DNA of 64,000 nt from Verrucomicrobiaceae bacterium (GTDB taxonomy: Bacteria > Verrucomicrobiota > Verrucomicrobiia > Verrucomicrobiales > Verrucomicrobiaceae), in NCBI GenBank assembly GCA_016795485.1, contig JAEUHM010000040.1, positions 124,001 through 188,000 of the forward strand, read 5' to 3'. Within the stretch, counting starts at the first letter, position 1. Each line of letters begins with the position of its first letter. This document shows positions 8,149 to 60,838 of this stretch, piece after piece. The notes under the pieces are model-generated. The model searched no databases and had not been told where the DNA came from. It saw nothing but the letters and a program-made list of their open reading frames with translations. The position numbers and the translations under genes were made by a program.

Positions 8149-8222
8149 TGGTCTTCCTACGCTCACAAAATGGCCCGTTTTACGAACATCGAGCCCCAGA
8201 TTCCTAGTTCTTGGCAGTCGGT

Positions 8223-9233
8223 TTACCTCCGAATGACCTCGGAAAACATATCAACATGAGTTGCGGCCTTTGCTTTCTCATTGATTTGAGATCTTTTCCG
8301 CAGCGTCTCGAAGTCCAGACCCTTGAAGTCGAAAACACCTCTTTCATAAAGCGCCTCATCGGCCTTGCCGTTCAAAAGGAATCGCCAGTCCCAAGACATC
8401 CGCTTATCCTTGGGGCGTTGGGTGCGAATGGTGGTGGTGCAATTAGTCGTGATGGCGTTGTACCATGCCGGGCTTGCATGCAGTTCGTTCAGTCCCTGGA
8501 TGTATTCCATGAATCGTTCGCGCGCCTGAACGGCAGTGGCATTGGTGTGGTAAAGAAAGACATCTTCGCCTTTTCGCACGCTGGTGCGTAAGCGGATCAC
8601 GTCTCGCTCATCCGCAACGATATAGATGAGTTCAAACTGACGATAAAGGCCACCGAGAGCAGAGTAGCTTTCACCCACCTCTTTCCGCGTCTCTATCGAG
8701 AAACAAATCGGTGAACTGCCTGAGAACTGAAAGCTAAGAATGGGATGAGCCATCCAGGGAGAACCCCAATAGCAGATCGCGATATCAAAACCGGTAATCT
8801 TGTCGAGATCGACCGTTCGTGTCTCCCAACGCTCTGTGAAGTCGTTGGGTGTCCTGTAGTCGAAGTTTCTTACGTGGTGGAGCGTCACCATGCTGCCATT
8901 CACCTCTGCCCAGGCGGTCTTTGAAACGTCCGTTTGCCAGTCGCGATCACTCCGAGGTCGCTGGGTGAGCCACAGAGCCAAGATAGAACAGAAGATTCCG
9001 GCCCAGGCAGCCGAGAGGCCTAACAAAGATCCTATCTTCCAGACGAAGATGCCGTGAATCGTCAACAGCAAAGCGATGATTACAAGATTGCCCTTCCCCA
9101 GGGGTGCATCAAACCAGACAGCTCCCATCTCCCACAAAAGAATCGGCAGCCCAATGAAGCACAATCCGATGCGACCAATCGTGCTCACTCTAGGCGGCAC
9201 TGGCTGGTAATCAGAAGTTGCTAACGTGTTCAT
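8223..9233 (-). CDS. DUF4105 (Lnb-type periplasmic domain) membrane protein
   Basis: The 336-residue product has about three membrane segments near residues 22-85. It then has a domain that I match to DUF4105: ISIETRKE-like SIETRKEVGESYSALGG, IVADERDVIRLR, and the conserved PAWYNAITTNCTT stretch with a cysteine that is characteristic of the family. DUF4105 proteins are membrane or periplasmic and their biochemical role is unclear; a papain-like fold has been suggested. The frame is open to 9281, but the ATG at 9233 is preferred because it precedes the hydrophobic region. It overlaps the 3' end of the upstream lipase-like gene by 23 nt, so the two genes are probably co-translated. Confidence 0.8.
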   Translation of the reverse strand: MNTLATSDYQPVPPRVSTIGRIGLCFIGLPILLWEMGAVWFDAPLGKGNLVIIALLLTIHGIFVWKIGSLLGLSAAWAGIFCSILALWLTQRPRSDRDWQTDVSKTAWAEVNGSMVTLHHVRNFDYRTPNDFTERWETRTVDLDKITGFDIAICYWGSPWMAHPILSFQFSGSSPICFSIETRKEVGESYSALGGLYRQFELIYIVADERDVIRLRTSVRKGEDVFLYHTNATAVQARERFMEYIQGLNELHASPAWYNAITTNCTTTIRTQRPKDKRMSWDWRFLLNGKADEALYERGVFDFKGLDFETLRKRSQINEKAKAATHVDMFSEVIRR

Positions 9234-13113: not shown

Positions 13114-13530
13114 TCAAAATGGACGAGGTGGAATCACGGGCACACCACCTACCACTGTGCACCGAACATAAACATTCTGACCGTTAATGATGTAGATGTA
13201 GTAATAGGTGCCGCTACAAAAATAGTAGTTCACACCAGAATACACACGCACCGTGTATCCCCTGGGAAGTCCATACATGTAGCGCGCAGGATTGCGCGGA
13301 TCGAATGGCCCACGAGGGTCGAATACACCACGCGGATCTAGAGGACCTCTTGGATCGAGAGGACCACGGGGATCAAGTGGCCCGCGAGGATCTGCTACTC
13401 CTCGTGGATCGAATGCTCCACGTGGATTGGCTGGGTGATGTCTTGGCAGCGCCGTGGCATCAGTAACCAGCGAGACGATAACGCCAGCCAACAATGCCAG
13501 ATAGGTGTGTCGAGTGAACAAAGTTTTCAT
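13114..13530 (-). CDS. Secreted protein with DPRG hexapeptide repeats
   Basis: The 138-residue protein has a signal peptide (about residues 1-28). It then has seven tandem hexapeptides of the form x-x-D-P-R-G (for example PLDPRG three times in a row, then VFDPRG and PFDPRN), and a C-terminal part rich in Tyr with two cysteines (VNYYFCSGTYYYIY and VYVRCTVVGG). The C-terminal part is of the type found after repeats in small secreted Verrucomicrobia and Planctomycetes proteins and may be disulfide-linked. The repeat is encoded by an 18-bp tandem array, so copy number could vary between strains. No function is known. The ATG at 13530 is chosen over one three codons upstream because it begins a normal signal peptide. 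Confidence 0.7.
   Translation of the reverse strand: MKTLFTRHTYLALLAGVIVSLVTDATALPRHHPANPRGAFDPRGVADPRGPLDPRGPLDPRGPLDPRGVFDPRGPFDPRNPARYMYGLPRGYTVRVYSGVNYYFCSGTYYYIYIINGQNVYVRCTVVGGVPVIPPRPF
13291..13416 (-). repeat. 18-bp tandem repeat, seven copies, inside the DPRG gene
   Basis: Seven contiguous 18-bp units encode x-x-D-P-R-G. The units differ mainly at third codon positions and in the first two codons, while D-P-R is invariant. This pattern suggests selection on the peptide rather than recent slippage, although three PLDPRG units are adjacent. Confidence 0.9.
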
Positions 13531-16645: not shown

Positions 16646-16663
16646 GAGGTGAGTGGGACTGTT

Positions 16664-17044
16664 TTATGACTTGTGGCCAGAGGTCGCGCCTCGGATGGCA
16701 GACAGCACCGCGCTGCCGGAATCCGTCTTGCGAAAATAGCCAGCACACCCCGCGCTCTCGGCTTGCGTGCGGACTTCCGGAGCGTCATGAGCTGTGATAA
16801 AGATAACCGGCGTATCGATGCCTTTGGTCACCAGCTTTTCATGCAACTCCAAGCCAGACATGCCCTCCAATTGGATATCGAGCACGATGCAGTCATAGTT
16901 AGAATGTCCTTCATCCGCCAGGAAGTCCTCTGCCGATGTGTAGGCGGTGGGCCAAAAGTTAGCCGCACGCAGCAGCCTACTCATTGAGCGGCATAGGCTT
17001 TCGTCATCATCGACGACTGCGATATGGATGTCGGGATTGGTCAT
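16664..17044 (-). CDS. Receiver-only response regulator (CheY-like)
   Basis: The 126 residues are a single receiver domain: acidic pocket VVDDDE, phospho-acceptor D56 in IVLDIQLEGMSG, switch Thr in FITAHD, and the conserved Lys in FRKTD. No output domain is present. Such proteins work by phosphotransfer or protein contact, and the next genes upstream encode an adenylate cyclase and a FixL/FixJ-like pair that could be partners. A 15-bp palindromic box lies 45 bp upstream of the start and is shared with the cyclase gene. A TAGTAT hexamer at 17057-17062 (minus) could be its -10. Confidence 0.88.
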   Translation of the reverse strand: MTNPDIHIAVVDDDESLCRSMSRLLRAANFWPTAYTSAEDFLADEGHSNYDCIVLDIQLEGMSGLELHEKLVTKGIDTPVIFITAHDAPEVRTQAESAGCAGYFRKTDSGSAVLSAIRGATSGHKS

Positions 17045-17088
17045 CTAACAGGCCAAATACTACCTGAGATGACCAGAACCCCGCCACT

Positions 17089-17103
17089 GCCCCTTGGGGA
17101 AGG
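17089..17103 (-). promoter_or_regulatory. Palindromic box CCTTCCCCAAGGGGC, copy 1
   Basis: The 15-bp sequence, read on the minus strand, has a core CCCCAAGGGG palindrome. The same 15 bp occurs at 18520-18534. It lies 26 bp upstream of a TAGTAT -10-like hexamer, about where an activator such as a FixJ-type regulator would bind. The regulatory role is inferred. Confidence 0.5.
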
Positions 17104-17129
17104 TTTCACCCAACAGAGCGTGACTGACG

Positions 17130-18464
17130 CTAAGCCAATCGGCAGAGCTTCAGCGGCTGGGATATCCCTCTGAGATTCACTTCTCCCATGTCCGTCCAGA
17201 CAACTCCAAGCTCAGATAGCCCATCGACAACAATGCTTGAAGCGAGGATCTGTGCTCCTCGCGCCTTGGTTTCCTGCTCAATGCGAGCCGCTGCGTTTAC
17301 CGTGTCACCAAGGAGCGTATATTCTTTTCGCTCATCGCTTCCAACAGTCCCTGCCATTGCACTGCCAGCGTGTATGCCAATGCCAATCTTAGTTGGGTAG
17401 ATACTTTTTGACGCATTCAACTGTTCCACGCACGCGAGCAACTTGATTGAGCACTCCACGGCATTGCGATGTAGAGCTGGATCTTCGAAGGGTGCACCAA
17501 AAATGGCCATGAATCCATCACCAAGGAACTTGTTCACTATTCCACCGTGCTGGTTCACAATGGCAATCATCGGTGTGAAAAGCGTGTTCAGATACTCCAT
17601 CACTTCCCCCGGTGTGTGGCTAGCCGCAATGTTGCTGAATCCTCGAATGTCTAGGAAGAGCACGCAGACGTGACGCTGTTCGGCGTTCATTGAAGTGCGC
17701 TGTTCAATCAGCCTTCTGGCCACTTGGGGTGAAACATGCTGACCAAAAATGTTCACCGCACGATCCCGCTCTCTGGCGAGCTCAACAGCGCGAACAAGAT
17801 GACCTCGAAGCTGGCTCGACACGAACGCTGCCACTCCACCAGCAATCACGAGAATACATCCCTTGAGCACGAAGGATGTCGTTGAAGTTAGAATGGATTC
17901 CTCGATCGAAGGATCAGTGCGGAGAATGAGGCGAGACACCGTTACAAAAGCTACCGCAGCGATCGCACCAGTGAACCAGCAGAGACGGGGGTTCAGGTGC
18001 AAGGCGGATGCTGCAATAAACGGGAAATAGAGCCACGGCAGCACGCCACCAACGGTTGGGATGACTCCCGCAACATGTGCCCAGTTCCACATTACCAAAC
18101 TTGGGACAAGTATCTCAACGAAGGCATTGATGAACTTGGCTACCCGAATGAGGCTAGCGGAACGATGGTGCCAGCGTCTCATCAACCACAGGATGGACAT
18201 CTGATATGCTGCCGTGCCCCCAAGGATGAGAATCATCGTGAAGATCGCAGGTCGAAAAGTCTCCTCTTGTCCCTTAGGAAGCGCGCGTGGTAAGAAAGCT
18301 ACAACACTAGCGATCACCGCCAGCAATCCAGCGACCATCGCCACGGCAGTAGCCCTCAGACGCTCACTCTTCGCCACCAGATGCTCTATGGACCGGAGAA
18401 GCTCCGTTTGTTCTTCCGCCTGACCAGTTGGCAGCCTCGAAAAAGATGTGTCGGGAATTGGCAT
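17130..18464 (-). CDS. Class III adenylate/guanylate cyclase, membrane-bound
   Basis: The product (444 residues from this start) has about six membrane segments in the first 230 residues, a short linker ending in VSPQVARRLIEQ, and a C-terminal class III cyclase domain. That domain has VCVLFLDIRGFSNIA with a metal-binding Asp, FLGDGFMAIFGAP with the second Asp, and YTLLGDTVNAAARIE with transition-state residues. It should make cAMP (or cGMP) at the inner membrane. The frame is also open to an ATG at 18497. I prefer 18464 because the 15-bp box at 18520-18534 would then lie 56 bp upstream, similar to its place before the receiver gene, but neither start has a clear ribosome binding site. Confidence 0.88.
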   Translation of the reverse strand: MPIPDTSFSRLPTGQAEEQTELLRSIEHLVAKSERLRATAVAMVAGLLAVIASVVAFLPRALPKGQEETFRPAIFTMILILGGTAAYQMSILWLMRRWHHRSASLIRVAKFINAFVEILVPSLVMWNWAHVAGVIPTVGGVLPWLYFPFIAASALHLNPRLCWFTGAIAAVAFVTVSRLILRTDPSIEESILTSTTSFVLKGCILVIAGGVAAFVSSQLRGHLVRAVELARERDRAVNIFGQHVSPQVARRLIEQRTSMNAEQRHVCVLFLDIRGFSNIAASHTPGEVMEYLNTLFTPMIAIVNQHGGIVNKFLGDGFMAIFGAPFEDPALHRNAVECSIKLLACVEQLNASKSIYPTKIGIGIHAGSAMAGTVGSDERKEYTLLGDTVNAAARIEQETKARGAQILASSIVVDGLSELGVVWTDMGEVNLRGISQPLKLCRLA

Positions 18465-41028: not shown

Positions 41029-41160
41029 GGTTTGGAACCCTCTGGCAACGCAAAACCGATGTCGAATCTTCCCATCATCAACTCGGACAGCGTCAAGTCT
41101 GGAACAGCAGATGCACCCCGCAGGGTTGAATATTCTTCGGTTTTCTCCATCTTAGATCAC

Positions 41161-41652
41161 ATGAAAACACAGCCACTCTGCTTCGCTCTAGCAATCATGT
41201 TGTTCGCTGCCGATTCCACATTCACCACGGGTCAGGACTCTAAGCTCCCGGATTTGAAACTCTCTGACTTCAAGATTGGCTCCGTTGTCAGCAGACCTGT
41301 GGTAGACCTCAAAAACACGGGTGGGAAGGGTGTTGTGATCGACGCTTGGGGCGTCAATCGCGGTCCCTGCATCGCCCTCTTGCCAGAGATGGAAAAACTC
41401 GCCTCTCGTAACTCCAAGGACACGATCTTTATCGGTGCGGAGTGCCAAGGATCGGAGACAGAAGCTATCATGAAGCTCGTCACAAAAAATCGCCTCTCCT
41501 ACACCATCACCAAAAGTGGAGTGGAAGGGCCGGTTGAGTGGTCGAGCCTACCATACTCTTTTGTTTTCGATCCATCAGGCAATCTCATCTACCACGGCCG
41601 CCCAACGGGGAAGGATTTTGAGAAGGCTGTGCGCCGTGCTGGAAAGCAATAG
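41161..41652 (+). CDS. TlpA/ResA-like thioredoxin-fold protein with a single active-site Cys
   Basis: The 163-residue protein has a signal peptide (about residues 1-22) and a redoxin/TlpA-like domain. In place of the usual WCxxC it has AWGVNRGPC, so only C70 of the active-site pair remains and R67 takes the position of the first Cys. Proteins like this may act as monothiol reductants, haem or copper chaperones, or have lost redox activity. An upstream frame extends to 41032 without features of a leader. It is followed after 4 bp by the PSCyt1/DUF1549 gene, so it probably works with that exported c-type cytochrome protein. Confidence 0.8.
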   Translation: MKTQPLCFALAIMLFAADSTFTTGQDSKLPDLKLSDFKIGSVVSRPVVDLKNTGGKGVVIDAWGVNRGPCIALLPEMEKLASRNSKDTIFIGAECQGSETEAIMKLVTKNRLSYTITKSGVEGPVEWSSLPYSFVFDPSGNLIYHGRPTGKDFEKAVRRAGKQ

Positions 41653-55390: not shown

Positions 55391-55943
55391 ACTGTTTCTC
55401 CTTTTCACTCGCAGGCTCAACGAAGTCGGCGTTCATTACATGGTGACCGGCAGTGTCGCGGCCATTTACTACGGTGAGCCGCGCATGACCAACGACGTGG
55501 ACATCGTCATGTTCCTCAAGCGAGAAGATGCGCGCCGACTGGTTGAGGCATTCCCAACGGATGACTTCTATTGCCCACCTGTCGAAGTTATTGAAGGCGA
55601 ACGTGCCAGGGATCAGCGCGGGCACTTCAATCTGATCCATCATGACACGGGCTTTAAGGCAGACATCTACCTGACAGGTCGCGATGATCTTCATTCATGG
55701 GGTATGGCTAATGCTAAACCAGCCATGGTGGAGAGTGAAGTGGTGACTTTTGCCCCGCCCGAATACGTCATCGTACGCAAGCTACAGTTCTATCGTGAAG
55801 GAGGTTCCGAGAAACACCTCCGCGACATCAGCCGGATGCTGATTGGCTTGGGAGAAGAATGGCCACGAGAGACGCTGGAGCGTCTGATTGGCGAATGGCA
55901 CTTAAATGCCGAGTGGCAGGAAGTTCTGTCTTATCGCTTCTGA
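55377..55943 (+). CDS. Nucleotidyltransferase-fold protein (MNT/AbiEii-like)
   Basis: The 188-residue protein has the nucleotidyltransferase signature GSVAAIYYGEPRMTNDVDIVM with G25-S26 and the metal-binding D40 and D42. A further Asp lies in FKADIYL. It ends with a helical region (VRKLQFYREGGSEKHLRDISRML) as in AbiEii-type and DUF6036-like proteins. Such enzymes can modify tRNA or proteins as toxins or antitoxins. The start overlaps the small helical protein by 14 nt, so the two are translationally coupled. A T-tailed hairpin follows. Confidence 0.8.
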   Translation: MDSPELFLLFTRRLNEVGVHYMVTGSVAAIYYGEPRMTNDVDIVMFLKREDARRLVEAFPTDDFYCPPVEVIEGERARDQRGHFNLIHHDTGFKADIYLTGRDDLHSWGMANAKPAMVESEVVTFAPPEYVIVRKLQFYREGGSEKHLRDISRMLIGLGEEWPRETLERLIGEWHLNAEWQEVLSYRF

Positions 55944-55988
55944 AGAAAACGGCAGTGGGAAGTCTATTGCCAAGCTGTGGGTGAAGCT

Positions 55989-56014
55989 GGTTGTTAAACA
56001 GCCTTTTTTCTTTT
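55989..56014 (+). terminator. Rho-independent-like terminator after the nucleotidyltransferase
   Basis: GGTTGT (55989-55994) pairs with ACAGCC (55998-56003) with one G-U pair and a TAA loop, followed by TTTTTTCTTTT (56004-56014). It lies 45 nt past the stop codon. The rest of the 235-bp spacer to the next gene shows no coding signal. Confidence 0.55.
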
Positions 56015-56178
56015 CGCACGCTATTGGCTCGTAAAGCTGGCGATAGAGAGGATTAACCTGGAGTTGTCTGTGACTACTCTTGACCTCTTCAGCAGTCATC
56101 ACTGCGCGCATCAGTCACCTGGGTGTGGCTCACCCAATGTGGTGAGTTCACCGTCGCTGGGCGGGTATTAATGAGTCG

Positions 56179-56352
56179 ATGAAATCCAAATACTATTCTC
56201 CCCGGTTGCAGCGCGAGCTTATTTCGCCGCTCTATCATGCGGCCAAGGCGGCACGCATACCCATGACAACACTAGCCAGTCAATGGATTCAGGAAGGCTT
56301 GCTCCGCTTGCAACGGAGCCAGCAGAAGAGTGCCAGGCGCGCTGAAGAATAA
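56179..56352 (+). CDS. Small ribbon-helix-helix-like protein
   Basis: The 57-residue frame encodes a strand-like start (KYYSPRLQRELIS), helix 1 (PLYHAAKAARI), a turn (PMT), helix 2 (TLASQWIQEGLLRLQRS) and a basic tail. This fits a minimal ribbon-helix-helix DNA-binding fold like antitoxin or CopG-type repressors. It was short enough to be easily missed. A perfect 12-bp terminator hairpin follows the stop, and the restriction gene operon runs toward it from the other side. It could regulate that operon or be the remnant of a toxin-antitoxin pair. Confidence 0.6.
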   Translation: MKSKYYSPRLQRELISPLYHAAKAARIPMTTLASQWIQEGLLRLQRSQQKSARRAEE

Positions 56353-56365
56353 ATCCCACATAACC

Positions 56366-56393
56366 AAGGCGGCTGAGGTCACTCAGCCGCCTT
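56366..56393. terminator. Bidirectional terminator hairpin
   Basis: AAGGCGGCTGAG (56366-56377), loop GTCA, and CTCAGCCGCCTT (56382-56393) form a perfect 12-bp stem between two convergent stop codons. The A-rich and T-rich ends allow it to serve both the small plus-strand gene and the minus-strand nuclease gene. Confidence 0.75.
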
Positions 56394-57110
56394 CTAGTTC
56401 ATTCTGATCCAAAGGTGTCGCAAATCGCAATCCACCAAGCCCCCGGAGCGAGCGTGCTTTGACTTGAGCACCTGGAGCTTGGATACTGCATCTGAGTTCA
56501 CCAGTTCGAGCAAATCCGATGCGCTCCATGAGGAGCCATCATCCTCAGAGAGCGTAGTGATCCAGCCGTTTACATCACCGAGCCAGTTCTCCAAAGGCTT
56601 CTCCTGAACGAAAGCGATCATGGCCGCAAATGAATGAGTAGAACCATGAAGCCCGAACTTGAATCTTTGGATTCCGCCTGTGGTGCCTGGGTCGGTGATC
56701 ACATATTCACGCTTGTCTCTATCTCCTTCGGCTGGAGTGGGCAGCCGTTTGCATTCAATGGGAAACAATGAGTCAAACTGACTGTGTCGCCTGCCTTCAA
56801 TGATAAGTGAGGCAGCTCTGGGTTTAACCGTTAGATCAATCTTACGTCCGGCTTTGGCTTCATCACCTGTTTCAGTGCGAAACTGGACATGGCTCCATTC
56901 TTCGGAGTAGTAGCTGGCGCTGTTGAGGTGGTCGCACAAATGTTCGGTCAGCGCTGTTTCTGCTGTTTTGGTGGGACGATCTGGATGATCTCTCCACATG
57001 GGCAACTCTCGGGCGATGAAATCGATCAACTCCAGCTTTGCGGTGGATGGCAGATGAATGTCGGCATCAAGACGACCTGAATGAACTTGAGGTATGCTAT
57101 CGGCCAACAT
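56394..57110 (-). CDS. PD-(D/E)XK nuclease-like protein, partner of the DNA methyltransferase
   Basis: The 238-residue protein shows the PD-(D/E)XK pattern: an acid helix (TAETALTEHLCDHLN), D92 in RKIDLTVK, a 26-residue spacing, then E119-x-K121 in FPIECKRL. Beta strands flank these, as in restriction endonuclease folds. The C-terminal region has no family I know. Its start is 12 bp after the methyltransferase stop, on the same strand, so the pair forms an operon. I infer it is the cleaving subunit of a restriction-modification-like defence system. Its stop abuts the terminator hairpin at 56366-56393. Confidence 0.65.
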   Translation of the reverse strand: MLADSIPQVHSGRLDADIHLPSTAKLELIDFIARELPMWRDHPDRPTKTAETALTEHLCDHLNSASYYSEEWSHVQFRTETGDEAKAGRKIDLTVKPRAASLIIEGRRHSQFDSLFPIECKRLPTPAEGDRDKREYVITDPGTTGGIQRFKFGLHGSTHSFAAMIAFVQEKPLENWLGDVNGWITTLSEDDGSSWSASDLLELVNSDAVSKLQVLKSKHARSGGLVDCDLRHLWIRMN

Positions 57111-57122
57111 GTTCTCGCGTCC

Positions 57123-59963
57123 TTAGAATCCTTGCTCGGCCAAATCAGCGAGTGTTTCGTCCGCATCTCTCAGAGCAATGGAACGCAGCCAGTACCTTAA
57201 GCGATCAGGCTTCAGCAGGTAGATGCATGGGCCGTCATATACCCTGGCAATGCGAGTGACCTTCAAACCTGCTCCGCGCTTCTCGCGAAGAAGCGCATCA
57301 ACCTTGTCTTTGAGTTCATTGGTATTGTTCCAGTCCACCTTCCCTTTGCCAAACACATAGGGCTGGCAAATGACGCCCGGCCAAACTTGCTCTGGTAGAG
57401 CTTGCAGCTTGTTCTTCTTATATACGGCATTGATGCGGGCAATGAAGGTCTCATTGAATGCTGGCAATGCAGGCAACCCAGCGTCCTTCATCGCGGCAGA
57501 GTCTTCTCCCAAGCGGATGAGATCACGGTAATGGCTGACGATTTCAGAAATCAAAATGCGTTCATGCGGTGAGATTTTGAGATCTCGTGATTCCGGTAAT
57601 GGTAAGGAAAGAACATCAATTTCAGATAGCGTCGTCGCTTTTTGAGTAAAGAGCCTAACGCTAATCGCCGCAACGTATGCTCGGAGTGAAGTGCTTTCAG
57701 CATTCAACCAATTCTGAATGTCGTTTAGAACAGTGACATCCCCTGCTTTTGCCCCACAAATGCCAACGACTTTATTTTTGTATGTGAGATAACTCTTGGA
57801 CCAAACAGCAGAATCTATATCCATTTGTTCACGCACAAGAAGCATCGGAGGGGAAAATCTGCTTTTGGTGTATGCCGTCTTGAACAGCTTATCAGTAACC
57901 ACGCTGATGACATTTTCGTCGATGCTGTTTCCGCTTATTGCCCCTGATGGAAGCAGCGGTTTACCTGTAAGGTGTTCGGCTGGAAGTCTCTTTCCGGTTT
58001 TGCCGACAATAAAACCCTCTCCGCAATCCCATCCAAAACTGGATGCATATTGACCTATCGTTGGCAACTTTCGAAGACGGTCCACAAATCCCAGTGTCCG
58101 CCCGCCTCCGAGCAAATTACATCGCCAAACACCATCATTGCTCATCACCAGATCACGGGTGAGCCAGTGCATGTCATAGTAGTCGATATCGAAACCTTGT
58201 TCGGCATCCGTGCGTCCACTGCGACGAAAAGTGGCGTGCAGTATATGTCTATCGAGCGGTGCATCCTGAGCTTCGGCAACCACAACGATGACTTTCGTGT
58301 CTGCATCTCCTTTTTGGAAAAGCCCACGCACGGAGATGAAGTCGAGAATCTCTCGCACATCCCAGCGCTGAATGAACTTCCTGCGGAAGCCGAGAGACTG
58401 CTGGTTGTAGAGGAAGTTGTATTGCTGGAGCATCGACAGGACTCCGCCAGGAGCCAGCAACTCCATGGACTTATGAAGGAACAAATAGGCGACCTGCTTG
58501 TCTGGCAGTTCTCCATGCTCTTTCTGATAAGACTCATAAGCGCGCTTAGCACCTTCAGTGCCCAGCTTGGACGCGAAGGGTGGATTGCCCACAATCACGC
58601 CGACTTTATCTTTGATCGTGCCTGCCTCCAGCGTCTCGAAGAAACAACCCGTGTGAATGAACTTCTCCTTTAGTTCAGGAAAGAGTTTCACACTGGCTCT
58701 GATCTCCATCGGCTCCAAGGCATCGCAAACCGCCAAACAGAGACTGAAGGAGGCGAGTTCGACCGCGCCTTCTTCCAAGTCCACGCCACGAATGCGAGAG
58801 GTGAGGAGCCTTTTGAGCACCATCTGTTTTGGACGATCCCAGTTGTTCCTAGAACGCCAGTGGAGCACGAGGCGCTTGTAGGCTTCCACAAGGAAGATTC
58901 CCGAACCGCAGGCACCATCCAGGATGACCTCGTTATTCTTCTCCAATCGGTCTAGGCGATCCCAACTCAATACCTCGCCAAGCATCATGCGCACCATGAA
59001 GTGGGGCGTATAGACAGCCACTGACGAGTCCTTGACAAAGAGCTGGTAGATGTGGCTGATGAGTTCGACAGGAAGGTCGGCAAAGGAGTAACGCTGCCAA
59101 AGGGTAAGCTGTCCTCCTGCTTCCTGACGACCTTCGATCAAGCGTGCAAACCGTGGGAGCTGTCTGCTCGTTCGTAGAGTTTCAGAGTCGTCACGACTAA
59201 GCGTAAAAACATGGCCATTGAACCTCTCTTCCAATGCTTCTAGCAAAGCTACAAGAGCAGGACCATCTGCAAGCACCTGAAAGAACTTGCTCGCGCCTTT
59301 TTTGAACCTTCCGAAGAAGTCGTCCTCAAACACTTGTCTGGCTTCGAGATAAGCCACTAGCACAGATAGAATCAGGAGTTTTCGACGAAGCGGCTTCGGC
59401 AAGATGCCTTCTGCGTTCAACTCTTCGTGAAGCTCTCTGACAGCATTGATCAGTGTCTTTTGAGCCGCCAGCTTGCTGGACAACAGCTTTTTGCATACGG
59501 CGGGATCATCCCAAAGTGTTCCGTTGCGTAGGCGCTCGGCGTCCCACCAAGGATCGCTGGCTATCTGTGTGGCAAGTTTTAGTGTTTTGAAAGGCTTGCA
59601 GACGATCTCAGCACCCTGCTCGAAGTCAGGCTTGTGAGCGCAGCGAAAAAGCTGAACCACCCCGCTGGTGACCCGGTATAACAGGGGCACGCCACCCCAA
59701 CTCCATAGTTCTTTGTGACGTTGTGCAAACTCGGGGTCTTTTACAGGTCCGTCAGAACGATAAACAAAGGCTTGCGCTATTGGTGGTTTACCCTCTTGGG
59801 ACGCCTCAAAAAAGACGGCGTCAGCCCCATAATGCTTGGCTTTCTCCATCACAGCCACGGTTTCTGGCTGTTGAGCAGCGGGATTGAATCCCATGACAGG
59901 CACGAGTCCATCAACGGCAATGCCGTTTGTGTAGTCAGCCAGCCATAGTGTTCGTTTGCTCAT
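57123..59963 (-). CDS. N6-adenine DNA methyltransferase, type IIG/Eco57I-like
   Basis: The 946-residue protein has an N-terminal region like that of Eco57I-type enzymes (AVFFEASQEGKPPIAQAFVY and WSWGGVPLLYRVTSGVVQLF) and a helical domain at about 150-310. The SAM-dependent methyltransferase core has motif I D349GACGSGIF and motif IV N460-P-P-F463, which implies N6-adenine methylation. A C-terminal part from about 690 resembles target-recognition domains (FGWDCGEGFIVGKTGKRL to SEIDVLSLPLPE). The catalytic residues of a fused nuclease are not obvious at the N-terminus, but a separate PD-(D/E)XK protein follows. It thus looks like a restriction-modification system with split subunits. A 44-bp repeat array lies just upstream. 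Confidence 0.88.
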   Translation of the reverse strand: MSKRTLWLADYTNGIAVDGLVPVMGFNPAAQQPETVAVMEKAKHYGADAVFFEASQEGKPPIAQAFVYRSDGPVKDPEFAQRHKELWSWGGVPLLYRVTSGVVQLFRCAHKPDFEQGAEIVCKPFKTLKLATQIASDPWWDAERLRNGTLWDDPAVCKKLLSSKLAAQKTLINAVRELHEELNAEGILPKPLRRKLLILSVLVAYLEARQVFEDDFFGRFKKGASKFFQVLADGPALVALLEALEERFNGHVFTLSRDDSETLRTSRQLPRFARLIEGRQEAGGQLTLWQRYSFADLPVELISHIYQLFVKDSSVAVYTPHFMVRMMLGEVLSWDRLDRLEKNNEVILDGACGSGIFLVEAYKRLVLHWRSRNNWDRPKQMVLKRLLTSRIRGVDLEEGAVELASFSLCLAVCDALEPMEIRASVKLFPELKEKFIHTGCFFETLEAGTIKDKVGVIVGNPPFASKLGTEGAKRAYESYQKEHGELPDKQVAYLFLHKSMELLAPGGVLSMLQQYNFLYNQQSLGFRRKFIQRWDVREILDFISVRGLFQKGDADTKVIVVVAEAQDAPLDRHILHATFRRSGRTDAEQGFDIDYYDMHWLTRDLVMSNDGVWRCNLLGGGRTLGFVDRLRKLPTIGQYASSFGWDCGEGFIVGKTGKRLPAEHLTGKPLLPSGAISGNSIDENVISVVTDKLFKTAYTKSRFSPPMLLVREQMDIDSAVWSKSYLTYKNKVVGICGAKAGDVTVLNDIQNWLNAESTSLRAYVAAISVRLFTQKATTLSEIDVLSLPLPESRDLKISPHERILISEIVSHYRDLIRLGEDSAAMKDAGLPALPAFNETFIARINAVYKKNKLQALPEQVWPGVICQPYVFGKGKVDWNNTNELKDKVDALLREKRGAGLKVTRIARVYDGPCIYLLKPDRLRYWLRSIALRDADETLADLAEQGF

Positions 59964-60448
59964 GTAATCGATTCTGTTCGATCAAATAGTAAGTGGGGCC
60001 ATCTGTCCATCCGAGAGTGAGTGGTGTGGGCCGATATTTGAGATGTGGCGGGCAAAGATTGGCATTCCGTGATTCGAGGGAGCTGGGCACAAGAAAAGCC
60101 AAAAGGCTCCTAGAAAGCCCATTTTCCGTCCGATGCCAGAGCTTGGAGTCGGGTATCGGGAGCTCTTGGGGTGGTGATACCCTGGGTGAGGGGTAGGGTA
60201 TCGGAGCTTTGGGGGTACGATTACCCTGCCTGAGGGGTGGGGTATCGGTGCCCTAGGGGTGGTAATACCCTGCACGAGGGCTCTGGTATCGGAGCCTTTG
60301 GGGTGCAATTACCCTGCTGGTGGGGTAGGGTATCGAAGCCTTTGGGGTGGGAATACCCTGCATCAGGGCTCTGGTTTCGATGCCCAAGGGGTTCGGCTTG
60401 GGTGCCGGGAGGGTTGCTTTGCGCGGGGTGGACTGGCATGATGGGAGC
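59964..60448. other. Non-coding spacer between methyltransferase and winged-helix genes
   Basis: This 485-bp spacer is the longest in the window. Its first 187 bp, next to the methyltransferase start, hold no credible gene and should carry its promoter. The rest is the 44-bp tandem repeat array and a 33-bp leader of the winged-helix gene. Open frames across it exist in several phases but none is preserved from unit to unit, because 44 is not a multiple of three. Confidence 0.8.
60151..60415. repeat. 44-bp tandem repeat array with internal dyads, about six units
   Basis: Units begin at 60151, 60196, 60240, 60284, 60328 and 60372, with lengths 45, 44, 44, 44, 44 and a decayed last unit. Each starts with (G/T)GGTATCG, continues with a GAGCCTTTGGGGT-like centre, and closes its dyad with TACCCTG, so GGGTA at the start pairs with TACCC about 25 nt later. 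Units 2 and 4 carry ATTACCC and end GGGGT(G/A). Units 3 and 5 carry AATACCC and end AGGGCTCT, so the array also has an 88-bp period. There are no unique spacers, so it is not a CRISPR. A role as a protein-binding array, plasmid-like iteron or mobile-element trace is open. Confidence 0.9.
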
Positions 60449-60838
60449 ATGAGTGACGATGTTTCTGCTCCTCCGACCGCTGTTTCTGAGCCTGTGAATC
60501 CTCCGCCGAGGGTGGCGGGTGCGTTGGAGGTGCTAAAGGCTGTGGCGGTGCCCAAGCGGTATGCGGTGCTGAAGGAGCTGGCGGACGGAAGTTACCCTGC
60601 GGTCATCCAGTTGGCGAAGAAGCTGGGGGCGAATCCTGACCTGATGGGCCGTCATCTGAAGCTCCTGCAAAAGGCTGGCCTTGTGGTGCGGGTGAGAGAC
60701 GGGAATGACTCAGATGGCAGGTCCAAGTATTACCAGATTCCAGAGCGGTTCCGCTCCGTGACGCCGGATGGCGGGCGAGTTTTGGACTTTGGTAGTGTGA
60801 AGCTGAGGTTGGACGCTGCGGGAACGCCTTCTGCGTGA
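60449..60838 (+). CDS. Winged-helix DNA-binding protein (ArsR-like fold)
   Basis: The 129-residue protein has a proline-rich N-terminus and a winged helix-turn-helix at about residues 25-100: AVPKRYAVLKELADGSYPAVIQLAKKLG, recognition helix NPDLMGRHLKLLQKAGLV, and wing VRDGNDSDGRSKYYQIP. This is the ArsR/MarR-like pattern of a transcription regulator. The frame is open upstream into the repeat array, but the ATG at 60449 begins the plausible protein. It starts 33 bp past the repeat array, so the array could be its binding region or part of its regulation. No metal-binding cysteines are seen. Confidence 0.8.
   Translation: MSDDVSAPPTAVSEPVNPPPRVAGALEVLKAVAVPKRYAVLKELADGSYPAVIQLAKKLGANPDLMGRHLKLLQKAGLVVRVRDGNDSDGRSKYYQIPERFRSVTPDGGRVLDFGSVKLRLDAAGTPSA

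Follow-up and report, generated by a model that had tools for sequence, protein, structure and literature searches.

A helically phased tandem array proposed as the operator of an adjacent ArsR-like winged-helix regulator, and its relatives across the phylum

The region upstream of a small winged-helix regulator gene in a Verrucomicrobiaceae bacterium contains a tandem array of 44-bp units, which raises the question of what so many repeated sites are doing at a single gene. The array was first described in an initial annotation of a window of 64,000 nucleotides (assembly GCA_016795485.1, contig JAEUHM010000040.1, positions 124,001 to 188,000), which offered several readings, including a binding array for the regulator, an iteron-like element, a BIME-like element, and a phase-variable promoter region, and placed it beside a restriction system. 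We have analyzed the array, the regulator, and their relatives in other genomes; the features in the window are listed in Table 1.

The array is plainly present. Identity at a lag of 44 is 0.73 (over 176 bp) and at a lag of 88 is 0.77 (over 150 bp). Dinucleotide shuffling of the intergenic region (500 rounds, all lags between 20 and 99) gave a mean of 0.39 and no value above 0.44, and TRF likewise reports periods of 44 and 88 at 60149-60392. As described, the array is made up of five good units and a decayed one, with a 22-bp sub-period within it too. The best-kept columns of the unit are GGGTAT and TACCCTG, corresponding to the dyad arms noted earlier, and in unit 1 the gap from GGGTA to TACCC is 22 nt. 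The 88-bp higher-order period is real but mild, in that units two apart share 31-36 bases per 44 and adjacent good units share 29-33. Direct reading of the left edge shows the subgroup motif once more in inverted orientation, and its word TACCCGACTCCAAGCTCTGGCATCG is also present in an array on contig C14 of the same genome; the array therefore begins further left than position 60151.

The array had been said to lie in the only long intergenic region of the window, but this is incorrect, as gaps of more than 400 bp are also present at 8167-9213, 16646-17132, 41029-41515, and 55941-56396 (counted between ORFs of at least 130 aa, such that small genes may sit inside them). The first of these gaps is a stretch of approximately 1 kb with neither an ORF of at least 130 aa nor an Rfam match.

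Table 1. Coordinates of the array, motif copies, predicted promoter, and regulator gene in the window.
Feature	Coordinates	Strand	Details
Tandem array, proposed operator array	60151..60415	no strand	5 good and 1 decayed 44-bp units (2 x 22); 88-bp higher-order period
Inverted subgroup motif copy (TACCCGACTCCAAGCTCTGGCATCG on minus strand)	60131..60155	-	Left edge of array; read directly
Motif copy TACCCTGC-N4-RGGCTCTGGNATCG, 3 mismatches	60222..60247	+	Genome motif search (G000:C46:184222-184247)
Motif copy, exact	60266..60291	+	Genome motif search
Motif copy, 3 mismatches	60310..60335	+	Genome motif search
Motif copy, 1 mismatch	60354..60379	+	Genome motif search
Predicted -35 (TTGCTT)	60414..60419	+	Right edge of array; weak consensus match; alignment of 37 upstream regions
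Predicted -10 (CATGAT)	60437..60442	+	17 bp after -35, 6 nt before ATG; leaderless transcript predicted
Winged-helix regulator, 129 aa, proposed array-binding protein	60449..60838	+	ArsR/SmtB-superfamily core and family-specific C-terminal extension (LDFGxCxxRF-type motif)

The core of the regulator is a winged helix of the ArsR/SmtB type, as identified with Pfam, NCBIfam, and a PDB sequence profile. HTH_5 scores above its cut-off in the window protein, and among family members 29 of 30 have HTH_20 and 24 of 30 have HTH_5. The AlphaFold2 model (built from five sequences, mean pLDDT 73.5) predicts a winged helix with C-terminal strands, albeit at moderate confidence only, and the top Foldseek matches to the model are SmtB and NolR, extending over about 73 residues. 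With the ArsR/SmtB autorepressors (SmtB, NolR, and SdpR) the protein thus shares a winged-helix core, both in sequence and in predicted fold, and the position of the gene beside its own proposed operator. It differs in that the NCBI curated subfamily model NF033788 is not passed (41.8 bits against a cut-off of 55), suggesting a divergent relative within the superfamily rather than a typical ArsR/SmtB metalloregulator, and in that its C-terminal segment falls outside the part covered by solved relatives. To our knowledge, the known ArsR/SmtB members each make do with a single operator or a small number of them, and arrays of 6-14 units are not a feature of theirs. A phage or plasmid origin was considered and rejected, as no relatives were found in phages or viral contigs and plasmids gave only generic ArsR matches.

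Arrays are not restricted to this locus. A search of the whole 6.5-Mb genome identified similar arrays elsewhere, and arrays with a 22-bp period and related words are present on contigs C46, C20, C14, and C3, as well as in related genomes within the family and the order. Those most like the array in the window sit directly upstream of homologues of the window regulator: a paralogue at G000:C46:64 kb in the same genome (63% identity over the aligned part), and genes at G009:C6 (63%) and G048:C30 (52%).

The association was quantified with relatives searched for by protein alone, 40 loci being taken irrespective of repeats and the upstream regions then inspected. Among the genomes searched, that of the window was the only one from its genus. 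An upstream repeat score of at least 0.54 (in 500 bp) was found for 28 of 51 family genes and for 4 of 268 other genes at the same loci, and 26 of the 51 family genes, chosen by protein similarity, have a period of the 21/42- or 22/44-bp type, or a multiple of it. The sequence of the array differs among subgroups, each of which has its own. A profile search covering 289 genomes of the phylum added array-bearing members in another class and in another family of the same class. There are 35 upstream arrays in a set of 73 genes, all but two of them (33/35) with lags at or adjoining 21, 42, 44, 84, or 88, and 23 with a lag of exactly 42; lags of the 21/42/44 type correspond to two or four helical turns. 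In a tree with few columns and many unresolved forks, all 33 array genes fall inside one group of 43 genes (SH-aLRT 92) and none among the other 30, and the array label changes seven times, compared with 24 in shuffles. Ten members of the array-bearing group have no detected array. Most of the array-less relatives fall in a sister group, whose small ArsR-like proteins end in TLDLGCCQFHFD (L099, L101-L103, L134-L140, and relatives), conserved in many genomes of one genus.

The array sequence varies together with the regulator (Mantel p 0.001 for array against recognition helix similarity). Among cross-genus pairs with similar recognition helices the arrays are alike in 44 of 78 (56%); in the two bins with a helix identity of at least 0.6 the proportion of cross-genus pairs with similar arrays is 50% and 75%, and it is only 1-2% where the identity is below 0.45. 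The flanks of the helix-similar pairs show no such likeness, with 0 of 71 similar in the downstream 400 bp and 0 of 78 in the interval from -1300 to -900. Array similarity correlates about equally with the recognition helix (rho 0.37) and with the remainder of the protein (rho 0.44), which shows that gene and array are inherited and constrained together rather than linked by a residue-by-residue code; part of the co-variation is accordingly explained by common descent of the unit as a whole. Some arrays keep a 22-bp block (0.86-0.89), and the other 20 bp of the 42-bp unit drift (0.62-0.64).

These patterns bear on whether the arrays have a function at all, since tandem duplication by slippage could leave functionless repeats that persist upstream of a dispensable gene. 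Copy number and decay do vary by locus, and the ten array-less group members would agree with this, but a period locked at 21/42/44, array likeness across genera without likeness of the flanks, and a motif that is kept as the spacer drifts make it the least probable of the explanations that we considered.

Nor do other genes appear to belong to the unit. No neighbour gene family is present at more than 2 of 28 loci, and because the flanks are also dissimilar, gene and array evidently travel together while what surrounds them is unrelated. A partnership with the methylase operon, or with another conserved neighbour, was therefore rejected; the neighbours differ at nearly every locus, a link to the operon is not supported, and the methylase neighbours of the window array are incidental. 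That they are a restriction system is itself only likely, in that 57123-59963 encodes an Eco57I/MmeI-type N6-methylase, but the 238-aa partner has no Pfam match.

The alignment of upstream regions also predicts a promoter at the right edge of the array. The pattern TTGNNN-N17-NANNNT is located 4-9 nt ahead of the ATG in 24 of 37 family genes and at 28 of 539 control ORF starts, although some of the control starts are miscalled, making this a weaker comparison. A strict sigma-70 scan did not pick up the promoter in the window, whose hexamers are weak by consensus, and its prediction thus rests on the family alignment. The array abuts or contains the predicted -35 in many family genes, and in several members of the KRLDATLKHL subgroup the -35 (CTTGTCA) forms part of the last repeat. 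A promoter in this position predicts a leaderless mRNA, with the array outside the transcript.

An alternative is that the array is transcribed and acts as a structured RNA, its hairpins serving as an attenuator or small RNA. The window array is indeed predicted to fold, as RNA, far better than shuffles do (z about -5), but internal dyads and hairpins are not a family-wide feature, as neither strand shows excess folding in 13 of 20 family arrays. RNA structure is disfavoured on this account, and with the predicted promoter downstream of the array and no Rfam match to the array region, we regard a role of this kind as highly improbable.

We favor the explanation that the array serves the adjacent regulator as a cooperative operator, providing autoregulation (most likely autorepression), with a few distal targets as well, and from the sequence comparisons we give it a probability of roughly 0.7. 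The winged-helix protein, through its ArsR-like core, would occupy successive 22-bp half-units, with neighbouring molecules on roughly one face of the helix and so able to bind cooperatively, such that the protein would coat approximately 250 bp, ending at the -35 of its own leaderless promoter. A filled array would presumably shut down transcription of the regulator (less likely, it would drive it), and could act as a sensitive, high-capacity autoregulatory switch, with the few distal arrays containing the same motif as further targets. The suggestion that the array binds this regulator is strongly supported, since similarly spaced arrays are found upstream of its homologues in other genera and in another class, with a sequence that tracks the regulator. 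The comparisons establish the array, the family, the linkage, the spacing, the co-variation, and the position relative to a predicted promoter; binding, cooperativity, the sign of regulation, and any signal sensed are inferred, binding being more certain than the sign.

Some observations count against an operator array. Six to 14 sites exceed the need of simple autorepression, control of a promoter is not expected where distal arrays lie between convergent genes, and both the array-less members of the array-bearing group and the weak hexamers of the window promoter fit it poorly. The 26-bp motif of the window subgroup (up to 3 mismatches) is found at eight sites in the genome and at none in the control, and all eight are within arrays: four in the window array, two in the array of the paralogue, and a single one in each of the arrays at C14:361 kb and C20:67 kb, both of which are orphans located between convergent genes. 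The motifs of two other subgroups are also located mainly in the arrays of their own regulators. The KRLDATLKHL-subgroup motif, present in six of eight genomes, is mostly in the regulator's own array, and beyond it there are a few distal sites or short arrays, among them one that again adjoins a family gene. The motif of the paralogue at C3:75 kb recurs at C18:166 kb and C57:412. The first of these (L232:4852-5353) is a distal 42-bp array upstream of an ECF-sigma-like gene in which two unit kinds alternate to give an 84-bp period, and the second (L233:209-622) is a distal 42-bp array upstream of a PfkB-type gene.

This distribution also speaks to the possibility of a selfish or dispersed extragenic repeat of the REP/BIME type, spread by a transposase and located beside the regulator by chance. 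Palindromic extragenic repeats are a point of likeness, similar 22-bp arrays are present elsewhere in the genome, and one orphan array adjoins a Y1 (RAYT-type) transposase gene. However, that transposase gene (G000:C20) is flanked by a repeat of its own, ACTTCGAGTGGCACTCGAAG, which is different, and we rejected a REP/RAYT origin for this reason. Moreover, the arrays here accompany a regulator gene, with a linkage far beyond chance and a sequence that is regulator-specific, and the eight sites are all in arrays instead of being scattered widely as single or paired copies. No more than two motif matches fall outside the arrays linked to a regulator, rather than many copies at unrelated sites, and so far as BIME features were tested, which was in part, the array does not share them; we consider a selfish repeat very unlikely. 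The RAYT-like gene itself is at L057:9532-10167, and further copies of its hairpin repeat are present on contigs C47, C11, and C4.

Iterons at plasmid origins are direct repeats of 19-22 bp, spaced by roughly two turns of the helix, that precede a rep gene of the winged-helix type. The loci described here differ in that the protein is a single short winged-helix (ArsR-like) domain and there are several such loci per genome. No Rep initiator gene was seen, and the iteron proposal, which was likewise tested in part, is not borne out.

Another parallel is TubR, a small winged-helix protein that has a direct-repeat array upstream of its own gene, represses its own operon, and coats the repeats as a filament (PMC5016525). 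The TubR-tubC pair of type III plasmid partition shares with these loci a repeat array upstream of a wHTH gene, and the resemblance of long phased arrays ahead of a small wHTH gene to tubC/TubR (PMC5016525) raises the prospect of a centromere-like or nucleoid-organising array, in which the protein would polymerise along several arrays to anchor, bridge, or segregate DNA, and autoregulation would be a by-product. That a genome has several arrays, of which some lie between convergent genes or repeat the same motif at distal loci, is consistent with this. In contrast to TubRZC, no TubZ-type GTPase, tubulin-type gene, or recurrent family is found among the nearest neighbours, and no recurrent NTPase or tubulin/actin-like partner adjoins the gene. 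There are many paralogues per genome, with different arrays and a 21/22-bp spacing, distal arrays are few, occurrence is patchy among genomes, and kinship with TubR is seen at the level of the winged-helix fold only. A centromere-like role is thus unlikely. A related and rather speculative idea, which we also think improbable, is a phylum-wide system in which ArsR-like protein filaments form on dedicated, helically phased arrays, both beside their own gene and at several sites elsewhere in the chromosome, with a chromosome-organising or long-range regulatory role that dispenses with an NTPase, and in which protein and array diversify together.

Returning to the operator array, BldC offers a further comparison. 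BldC is a small DNA-binding protein that forms a cooperative oligomer on a variable number of direct repeats (PMC5859096), but it is MerR-like, and the abstract does not describe a dedicated long array ahead of each gene. The ingredients are already known, in ArsR-like autorepressors, in TubR on tubC, and in BldC on direct repeats. A family of solitary ArsR-like genes throughout a phylum, most with their own long phased array, was not found in the open-access literature searched, although such an absence is weak evidence.

One odd repeat thus becomes a family, with dozens of related regulators, most of which have a matching and strictly helically spaced array. These offer a natural library for the joint change of winged-helix specificity and DNA sites, and for asking why so many sites are present at a regulator's own gene. 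They also suggest a candidate function for the conspicuous repeat arrays that genomes of the phylum contain, and a connection, open to testing, with protein-DNA filaments of the centromere-like kind.

Three further repeats were encountered. A near-perfect 22-bp array of about 20 copies at L241:6554-7008 (G009:C18) lies just upstream of a BRO-N gene, with no detected family regulator adjoining it. The end of L058 and the start of L053 (the end of contig C3 and the start of contig C46 of G000) contain the same array and about 400 bp of flank in opposite orientation, and the assembly breaks there. Within the window, the short 18/36-bp tandem repeat at 13295-13392 is probably coding.
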